Source: Minisyncoccota bacterium
GTDB lineage: Bacteria > Patescibacteriota > Minisyncoccia > Phycocordibacterales > UBA9973
Reading direction: 5' to 3'
DNA length: 33,337 bases
NCBI GenBank assembly: GCA_016649835.1
Contig: JAENWX010000004.1
Coordinates: 1-33,337, forward strand
The translations under genes were made by a program, and so were the position numbers. Positions 32,219-33,337 of this stretch are shown piece after piece. Below the pieces are notes generated by a model, which had not been told where the DNA came from, did no database searches, and saw nothing but the letters and a program-made list of their open reading frames with translations. The stretch's first letter is position 1. Each line of letters begins with the position of its first letter.

Positions 32219-32273
32219 AATATAAATTAAAAAACTCTCCGATGTAACATCGGAGAGTTTTTTAATTTATATT
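32219..32273. terminator. Bidirectional terminator between trxB and the convergent nucleotidyltransferase gene
   Basis: 26-bp perfect stem AATATAAATTAAAAAACTCTCCGATG-taa-CATCGGAGAGTTTTTTAATTTATATT. Confidence 0.92.
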
Positions 32274-33028
32274 AAATCTTGATTAGCAAGTAATCCTTCG
32301 AGTATTTCTAATTCTTCTCTAGAGTTTGGCTGAAATCCCTCCAAAACATTTTTAACAGGAACAGCTTCTATTAGCTCTCCTTCACGACTGGCCAACTTAA
32401 CTAAATCTGTTAAATAATATTCGCCTTGAGCATTTTCATTTTTTAATTTATCTATATTATTCCATAACCACACAGAATCAAAAGCATATAAAGCAGGATT
32501 AACTTCTTTAATTTCTTTTTCTTTATTATTAGCATCTCTATATTCTACAATTCCAATAACTTTACCATTTTCATCTCTTAAAATTCTACCAAAGTTTATT
32601 AATCCCGCCCTCCACTCTTTAAAATCAGGAAGGACAACAGTGCCTAAAGTAATAACTGCTTTCTTTTCTTTATGTATAAGTATTATATTTTCTATTGTTT
32701 CTTTAGAAACCAATGGTTGGTCTGCGGACAAAACTACAATTATTTTATGGTCTGGATGTGTAGACTCTTTAGCTGAAAGAACTGCGTGTCCAGTGCCAAG
32801 CTGCTCTTCTTGGTGAGCATAAGTATAGTTTGGTCCTATAACATCAAAAATGCGTTCTTTCTTATGACCAACAACTATTACTGGATCTATAGGTAATTTT
32901 AAATGAGATACAGTCTCCAAAATATGTTTTAAAAATGGTTTACCTTGAAGCATTGCAAGTGCCTTTGGATCATCTGACTCCATTCTCTTTCCTTTGCCTG
33001 CTGCTAAAATAATTATTTGTGTATTCAT
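32267..33028 (-). CDS. GlmU-N-like sugar nucleotidyltransferase without left-handed beta-helix acyltransferase domain
   Basis: [34 protein letters not shown]...[15 protein letters not shown]...[15 protein letters not shown]. Confidence 0.85.
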
Positions 33029-33067
33029 AATATAAAAATTAATAATAATTAAAACAATTTAGTAATT

Positions 33068-33090
33068 TGGTGGGGGAGTAGGATTTGAAT
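33068..33090 (-). other. tRNA 3'-end-like sequence with encoded CCA (incomplete or disrupted T arm)
   Basis: Minus strand ATTCAAATCCTACTCCCCCACCA: T-loop-like TTCAAAT, acceptor-like strand and CCA; no matching T stem 5' side. Confidence 0.4.
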
Positions 33091-33337
33091 ACAACCTATT
33101 CGGGTACTTTTCACTCCGATGTCCATCGGAGAATGAAAAGTCTTTCAAATCCCTCACGCGAGACAAGCAGTTGTCTCGCTACCGCGCACAAAATTGCATT
33201 AGCAATTTTGTGCGCGGTGAGGGATTTGAATACTACCTATTCGGGTACTTTTCACTCCGATGTCCATCGGAGAATGAAAAGTCTTTCAAATCCCTCACGC
33301 GAGACAAGCAGTTGTCTCGCTACCGCGCACAAAATTG
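33081..33337. repeat. 141-bp tandem repeat, 1.8 copies to the window edge, highly palindromic
   Basis: 33081-33196 recurs at 33222-33337 with one observed substitution (tacaacc vs tactacc); contains at least four nested or adjacent inverted repeats. Confidence 0.92.

Follow-up and report, generated by a model that had tools for sequence, protein, structure and literature searches.

Palindromic elements that follow tRNA genes in Patescibacteria mirror the end of the adjoining tRNA and may be mobile

Introduction

The right end of a 33,337-nucleotide contig from a Minisyncoccota bacterium (JAENWX010000004.1; this whole stretch is referred to below as the window) is occupied by a palindromic tandem repeat carrying what looks like the 3′ end of a tRNA. 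A preliminary description of the locus suggested a tRNA-targeting palindromic element or an attachment region. What is this array, to which tRNA does it belong, and do comparable sequences lie behind other tRNA genes? Here we place the array next to its tRNA, describe the anatomy of the elements that compose it, follow related elements through the phylum Patescibacteria, and weigh the ways in which they could have arisen.

Results

The repeat follows a tRNA-Val(GAC) gene outside the window

The repeat unit of 141 bp, recognized in the preliminary description and confirmed by TRF (period 141), is present in 1.8 tandem copies that fill the last 277 bases of the window; the contig end cuts the array at 33337, so that 1.8 copies are its visible part only. 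The two copies (33066-33196 and 33207-33337, at 141-bp spacing) are 94% identical over 131 nt and differ in the distal tRNA-like end and in a GTTG/GTAG exchange. On the minus strand each unit consists almost entirely of inverted repeats, every one of those named earlier being present, and the array strand folds at -137.2 kcal/mol as compared with -69.4 ± 4.6 kcal/mol for shuffled sequences (z = -14.7). The tRNA-like 3′ end TTCAAATCCTACTCCCCCACCA was likewise found where it had been reported, at 33068-33089 on the minus strand.

ARAGORN predicted no tRNA gene over the whole window, and the tRNA was located with the help of two other contigs. One contig of the window's own genome (C38; the genome, G000, is 92% complete) carries tRNA-Ser(CGA) followed by a tRNA 5′ half, GCGCGGTTAGCTCAGTTGGTAGAGCGCGTCATTGACGTTGACGATGTC, which begins with GCGCGGTTAGCTCAG and is broken by the contig end. 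A Nomurabacteria MAG (JAPLXS010000012, locus L048) has, behind tRNA-Ser(CGA), a tRNA-Val(GAC) in full length and, directly after it, one copy of the window's element; the 3′ end of this tRNA is TTCAAATCCCTCACCGCGCAC and its acceptor GCGCGGT. Given the end of C38 and the gene order in L048, the array lies between tRNA-Val(GAC) and the downstream host gene at 32267-33028 (minus strand, 253 aa, nucleotidyltransferase-like by its N-terminal motif). What the window shows is thus the last part of a tandem array that follows tRNA-Val(GAC), a gene situated beyond 33337, and the tRNA-like sequence at 33068-33089 is a diverged, partial distal direct copy of the tRNA 3′ end. The array had appeared to begin inside or adjacent to a tRNA T arm, and a tRNA with an acceptor starting GGGGGAG had been predicted beyond it; no such tRNA was found, and the actual one stands on the far side of the array.

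The same locus varies among relatives. In the sister genome G088 the ortholog of the gene at 32267-33028 starts directly behind tRNA-Val(GAC), which represents an empty site, while G224 carries at this position a remnant of another element type (core B, see below). Between the window and the orthologous element in L048, whole stems have been swapped en bloc, with loops and flanks kept.

Two explanations of the array were rejected. A tRNA split by, or fused to, the repeat is ruled out by the complete tRNA-Val with one unit in L048. As for misassembly, the two units differ, relatives have a single-copy element, and tandem units also occur in other genomes (L044, L061 and L297).

Elements share one anatomy

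Read on the tRNA strand, the elements follow one order: the tRNA 3′ end (R), a terminator-like hairpin, r1, often a hairpin with a CTGC loop, r2, a core, and a direct copy of R (R′). The segment r1 mirrors the acceptor strand, and r2, which ends at T54, mirrors the T stem and loop; the inverted copy r that they make up is usually split by the CTGC-loop hairpin. Two cores were distinguished. Core A combines AGACTTTTCRTT-stem-GAAAAGTACC with a further hairpin, whose central loop is GTRR, and in many cases with a mini-hairpin that has the loop TACT; core B has the form GCCGGAGC-stem-GCGAGGCGG, followed by further hairpins. The elements are non-coding and measure about 110-250 bp; longer versions with an internal gene were not found, bracketed genes aside (see below), and remnants reduced to the hairpin and r1 exist. 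R′ was found at 68 of the 307 tRNAs examined. In most of these 68 cases it starts 16-21 nt before the tRNA end, in the T loop, and it usually stops 0-10 nt past that end; sometimes it continues through the terminator or through the whole unit, which produces the look of tandem arrays such as the window's.

Both units of the window, placed by their sequence on the minus strand, fit this scheme. From the contig end inward, unit 2 shows r1 with the terminator-like hairpin, cut by the contig end (33322..33337), a CTGC-loop hairpin (33299..33320), r2 (33285..33298) and core A (33225..33289; covariance model, 77.3 bits, E 2e-13). A direct copy identical to the tRNA-Val(GAC) 3′ end of L048, TTCAAATCCCTCACCGCGCAC (33210..33230), then serves both as R′ of unit 2 and as R of unit 1. 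It runs into a perfect hairpin, CCGCGCACAAAATTGC-TAAT-GCAATTTTGTGCGCGG (33182..33217), which comprises the acceptor 3′ end of R, the terminator-like hairpin and r1. Next come the CTGC-loop hairpin GCGAGACAA-CTGC-TTGTCTCGC between r1 and r2 (33158..33179) and r2 itself, an inverted copy, GTGAGGGATTTGAA, of the T loop and T stem of tRNA-Val as known from L048 (33144..33157). Core A of unit 1 (33084..33148) scored 75.3 bits (E 4e-13), partly by construction, as the core of this distal unit was included in the model's alignment. Sequence, alignment and pair counts together define a core hairpin, CTTTTCA-TT-CTCCGATG..CATCGGAG-TGAAAAG (33107..33140), with a conserved extrahelical TT at 33132-33133, and a CCCGAATAGGTTGTATTC-type hairpin with a conserved central GT (hairpin 3, 33082..33104). 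The unit closes with the diverged R′ (33068..33089), in the same layout as at the 68 tRNAs mentioned above.

Several loci depart from this plan. Smaller hairpins ending in CTAC/CTACTGGG are nested in loops or junctions of elements behind tRNA-Ser(act) (L110), tRNA-Ser(tga) (L108) and tRNA-Leu(tag) (L107) and at L041, as if a second, smaller hairpin inserted there. Tandem direct repeats that comprise a tRNA 3′ end and some 50-70 bp downstream of it, but no inverted copy, follow tRNA-Thr(TGT) in G088 (L174) and tRNA-Phe in the window's genome (L079). At the end of contig C50 of the latter genome (L080), tRNA-Lys(TTT) is followed, up to the contig end, by an inverted tRNA copy around the terminator, which is either an assembly artefact or a true large palindrome. 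Broken tRNA copies in which an element sits inside the T arm or replaces it resemble tRNA-Glu (L269), tRNA-Gln (L279), tRNA-Tyr (L065) and tRNA-Arg (L046), and some broken element-bearing copies adjoin an intact tRNA of like kind.

The arms match the adjacent tRNA in distant lineages

The preliminary description had suggested a search for the 141-bp unit beside other tRNAs. The unit is not a single repeat shared by them: each tRNA has its own version, with other stem sequences and equal anatomy. We counted a match when a reverse complement of at least 10 nt of the tRNA's last 24 nt occurred within the next 250 bp, and took the expectation from other tRNAs. Of the 31 tRNA genes in the window's genome, 22 had such a match to their own 3′ end (1.3 expected). 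The corresponding figures were 45 of 96 for core-A loci from GTDB (2.6 expected) and 17 of 60 for core-B loci from the phylum (1.7 expected); since these two sets were chosen by their cores, the contrast between own and other tRNAs is meaningful and the frequency is not. Matching to the own tRNA was also counted independently with another cut-off. By an r2-based test, the load amounts to 23 of 31 tRNAs in the window's genome, 8 of 37 in G088, 7 of 37 in G224 and 0 of 5 in G043.

A search of 84,980 species for the core A pattern GAAAGACTTTTCRTT..GAAAAGTACC returned 58 loci, with Nomurabacteria, Vogelbacteria, Zambryskibacteria and other Paceibacterota/Patescibacteria as named hosts. The majority have a tRNA on the same strand, with the core 28-180 bp behind it, and many isotypes are represented; two further loci lie behind tmRNA, confirmed by ARAGORN, and some others behind broken tRNA copies. 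The strict core A pattern occurred in 4 of 238 genomes of the class, namely one Vogelbacteria and each of the three species sampled from the window's genus. Strict core B was wider, at 25 of 380 phylum genomes with only a handful of control matches, and reached many copies in distant families (G291, G390, G460 and G341). Of the first 20 loci, 15 had it behind a tRNA, as did most of 20 further regions; two matches inside coding sequence look like chance. The proposal of a tRNA-targeting palindromic element or attachment region is thus supported in part: the position behind tRNAs of many isotypes and tmRNA and the matching arms come close to it, the details of the tRNA having been wrong or incomplete. 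A viral, phage or plasmid origin was considered and rejected: viral contigs contained no exact core A match, and no similar DNA was found in phages or plasmids.

Elements come and go between related species

In a comparison of three species of one genus, the window's genome exceeds one or both of its relatives by 64-359 bp at eight tRNA loci with shared downstream genes: Arg(CCT), Arg(TCG), Arg(TCT), Gly(GCC), Leu(CAA), Leu(GAG), Phe and Gly(CCC). At Arg(CCT) and Phe, where the sequences were read, the extra stretch is the element including its terminator-like hairpin; at the other six the extra length falls at the position of the element in the window's genome. With tRNA-Val at the window included, about nine syntenic loci carry extra sequence or an element absent from a congener species, and elements at Gly(TCC), His and Glu are common to the compared species. 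Nearest-neighbour comparison of the cores paired members of the same genome 21 times (7.3 when shuffled), a count somewhat inflated by a few pairs in which one element was counted behind two neighbouring tRNAs, and members of the same tRNA 13 times (2.6 when shuffled). These patterns are consistent with spread between tRNAs within genomes combined with vertical descent, and the sequence comparisons support mobility, with elements coming and going between related species.

The elements might instead be replication palindromes, in which a polymerase switches template at the tRNA-terminator hairpin, generating r and R′, and the product is kept for strong, insulated termination, with no transposition involved. 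Near-perfect Watson-Crick stems that are replaced en bloc between orthologs, as between the window and L048, speak for such an origin, as do direct repeats of variable length, some of them running through the terminator, and the remnants of hairpin and r1; moreover, elements occur in G014, where integrase-like families are limited to one Xer-like match. Against it stands the core, which is conserved behind many unrelated tRNAs both within one genome and across the phylum and cannot have been copied from a tRNA, so that it must have been brought in. Clean presence and absence at syntenic sites and the bracketed genes also count against this explanation, which we regard as improbable but the most serious of the alternatives to insertion. 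Tandem and partial last units could come from replication slippage, and nothing shown here requires strand exchange by a recombinase.

Pair changes point to DNA hairpins

Are the conserved stems kept as DNA or as RNA? Alignment of core A gave paired bases in 91.9% of cells, compared with 69.4% after shuffling and less than 49% in slid controls, and pair changes were two-sided in 147 cases and one-sided in 9. In structured RNA, wobble pairs show on the sense strand. Accordingly, the tRNA acceptor stems of the element loci, used as a control, gave a G-T:A-C ratio of 93:6. The CTGC-type hairpins gave 14:14 (2:2 in a stricter set) and core A 11:6, the latter ratio differing weakly from the RNA-like one. 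With no clear excess of G-T in the element stems, their structure appears to be kept at the DNA level, so that the counts, though drawn from a modest number of non-Watson-Crick pairs, point to DNA hairpins. Symmetric stems could also arise from a rarely transcribed RNA or from palindrome correction by template switching.

These counts bear on a further explanation, a structured regulatory RNA in the read-through transcript of the tRNA, in which r, by pairing either with R′ or with the 3′ half of the tRNA, would switch maturation on and off. Complementarity to the own tRNA, strong covariation and a terminator-like hairpin directly behind the tRNA would all suit such a function. The stems, however, lack the clear G-U excess of the tRNA control, transcription would end at the hairpin and not reach the remainder of the element, and sister species have the same genes with no element. 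In searches against Rfam 15, only the tRNAs themselves matched in the loci examined, the best chance match scoring 19.7 bits against a gathering threshold of 50. We consider a regulatory RNA unlikely.

No tested enzyme family tracks the elements

We compared the occurrence of enzymes and elements by single protein families, and no recombinase, transposase or reverse-transcriptase family tested tracks the elements. The phage-integrase family (PF00589) had no match in the window's genome and one or two, probably Xer, in its relatives. Y1_Tnp transposases were found in 161 of 238 genomes of the class, with five in the window's genome; G014, which has core-B elements, yielded neither a Y1 nor a serine recombinase match. 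Reverse transcriptase (RVT_1) was absent from three element-bearing genomes (G188, G014 and G390). As none of the dedicated recombinase families tested follows the elements, the least unlikely agents are a host Xer-type recombinase or the host's own machinery of replication and recombination.

The abundance of Y1 transposases invites comparison with REP/REPIN-like sequences mobilized by a RAYT or an IS200/IS605-type Y1 transposase encoded elsewhere. In favour are the hairpins of the elements, whose conserved extrahelical bases adjoin GTAC. Most of the five Y1 genes in the window's genome, however, are accompanied by short palindromes of their own and of another kind, which recur both around and within the genes, and none has a tRNA element; G014, moreover, has elements with no Y1 match. 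To our knowledge, REPs have neither target-specific arms nor a duplication of a tRNA end. We consider this origin unlikely. The Y1 genes in question (L162-L166, on contigs C34, C47, C40, C7 and C56) are RAYT-like, with perfect palindromes such as TTTTAGTAGTTCAACTACTAAAA, TCTCCGCTAGGACTGTCCTAGCGGAGA and AGCCATAAGTCCGACTTATGGCT. A RAYT origin was rejected on the other palindromes at these loci and the lack of any tRNA element or core-A match in L162-L166.

The 3′ ends of tRNAs are classical integrase sites, and the elements could be attL/attR remnants, or satellites, of tRNA-targeting tyrosine integrases or large serine recombinases. The latter are common, and their genes end about 2 nt behind tRNA 3′ ends, as at Trp in the window's genome, Asp and Asn in G224, Tyr in G088 and Ala in G199. 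Yet the window's genome has no phage-integrase match, the element-bearing G014 has no serine recombinase, and the serine-recombinase islands examined show no direct copy of the tRNA end nearby. The attL and attR sites known to us carry no inverted copy of the tRNA end, and we give this origin a low probability. At the five islands (L253 on contig C44 of the window's genome, L254 and L192 in G224, L231 in G088 and L153 in G199), the serine recombinase genes converge on the tRNA, their reading frames being open to about 2 nt behind its 3′ end or into it, and other genes accompany them; these are apparently tRNA-targeting serine-integrase elements of many isotypes. A serine recombinase origin of the palindromic elements was rejected, there being no direct copy near the tRNA at the islands examined and no such enzyme in G014.

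Some elements bracket genes

In four cases open reading frames lie between sites, while most units have none. In G390, two elements with the same tRNA-Ser arms enclose about 5 kb of sequence behind tRNA-Ser(GCT). This segment (L281:1394-5854) encodes a type II restriction enzyme (E 5e-17), its type II methyltransferase (E 3e-233), LexA, which may be an ordinary host gene, and two unassigned proteins. In CALQZW010000002, two Val-type elements behind tRNA-Val enclose 1.9 kb with two ORFs, and in the window's genome two Asn-type elements behind tRNA-Asn enclose an ORF of 221 aa. The remaining case is that of G224, where tRNA-Ser(GGA) and an element flank an ORF that looks aspartate-racemase-like by its sequence. 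No recombinase was seen among the bracketed genes.

Discussion

We propose that the array belongs to a group of non-autonomous elements that integrate at the ends of tRNA and tmRNA genes of Patescibacteria via a folded single-stranded site, with the enzyme supplied in trans, and we put the probability of this reading at about one half. It starts from the observed location, arms, direct copies, presence and absence between relatives, tandem units and bracketed genes, to which it adds a presumed single-stranded DNA form, a recombination step, an enzyme and a route by which the arms come to match.

In such a scheme, the mobile form would be a single strand that folds, and pairing of r with R′ (or R) would restore the tRNA 3′ end in duplex form as a site for recombination. 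This site could derive its polarity from the CTGC hairpin and from the extrahelical TT that is conserved, much as in the folded attC of integrons. Strand exchange in the T-loop/T-stem region would then add the element and leave R′ behind, and the tRNA would keep a proper 3′ end through the terminator-like hairpin that the element brings; this hairpin may also be kept for tRNA termination alone. The enzyme would have to act in trans, and the host agents named above are the candidates. The change of r upon a move to another tRNA is not explained by a simple cycle of excision and reintegration, and r might come to fit its new tRNA either by copying at insertion or by later correction of the palindrome through template switching. 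Either route would be new for a bacterial element, and we know of no described parallel to an element whose flanks match each tRNA.

The bracketed genes allow a more tentative extension, namely that Patescibacteria possess an integron-like mode of gene capture. Here tRNA and tmRNA genes would be the recipient sites, the elements would be portable folded single-strand sites with the stems of the recipient tRNA, and a host recombinase acting in trans would add cassettes, restriction-modification genes among them. We hold this to be rather doubtful.

Most tRNA genes of the window's genome are affected, and related elements are found across Patescibacteria, a very large and hardly cultured group in which gene acquisition is poorly understood. 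The elements may explain some contig breaks at tRNAs in assemblies of these bacteria and offer insertion markers for strain tracking. No description of them was found in the literature searched, which left preprints and many journals out of reach, so that an earlier description is possible; the family is apparently undescribed, its novelty lying in the combination of features.

By the features tested, the elements are not REP/RAYT sequences, MITEs, retroelements or a known RNA family. With REP/REPIN sequences they share short, dispersed palindromes that are likely moved in trans, but they are tRNA-bound, have target-specific arms, duplicate the target end and are present where Y1 transposases were not found. 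Like MITEs of DDE transposons they are small, non-autonomous and inserted; unlike them, they have neither fixed terminal inverted repeats nor a short target duplication of fixed length, and their arms vary with the tRNA. Retrons and group II introns differ in that reverse transcriptase is absent from the hosts G188, G014 and G390.

The tRNA 3′-end integrative elements (phages, genomic islands and tycheposons) resemble them in integrating at the tRNA 3′ end and in the distal direct copy from the T loop to the end. In contrast to these, the elements described here measure only 110-250 bp or so, are non-coding, carry an inverted tRNA copy, have no dedicated integrase and affect most tRNA genes of one genome. 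The attC site of integrons is likewise an imperfect palindrome with side features and extrahelical bases, in which structure outweighs stem sequence, and of these attC-type features covariation and the conserved TT bulge are present in the elements, single-strand DNA folding being suggested by the wobble counts. Integron cassettes further share with them tandem arrays and the lack of a recombinase inside the unit, and genes between successive sites may have a counterpart in the few bracketed cases. Unlike attC, the elements stand at tRNA and tmRNA ends, their stems copy the target tRNA, sequence is conserved in the loops and the core, and most units are geneless; integron R boxes (RYYYAAC/GTTRRRY) were not seen by eye in the conserved core columns, and an IntI integrase was not found (PF00589: none in the window's genome, 1-2 in relatives). 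The elements are nearest in their working to integron attC sites and to tRNA-end integrative elements but lack the associated integrase, a defining feature of both.
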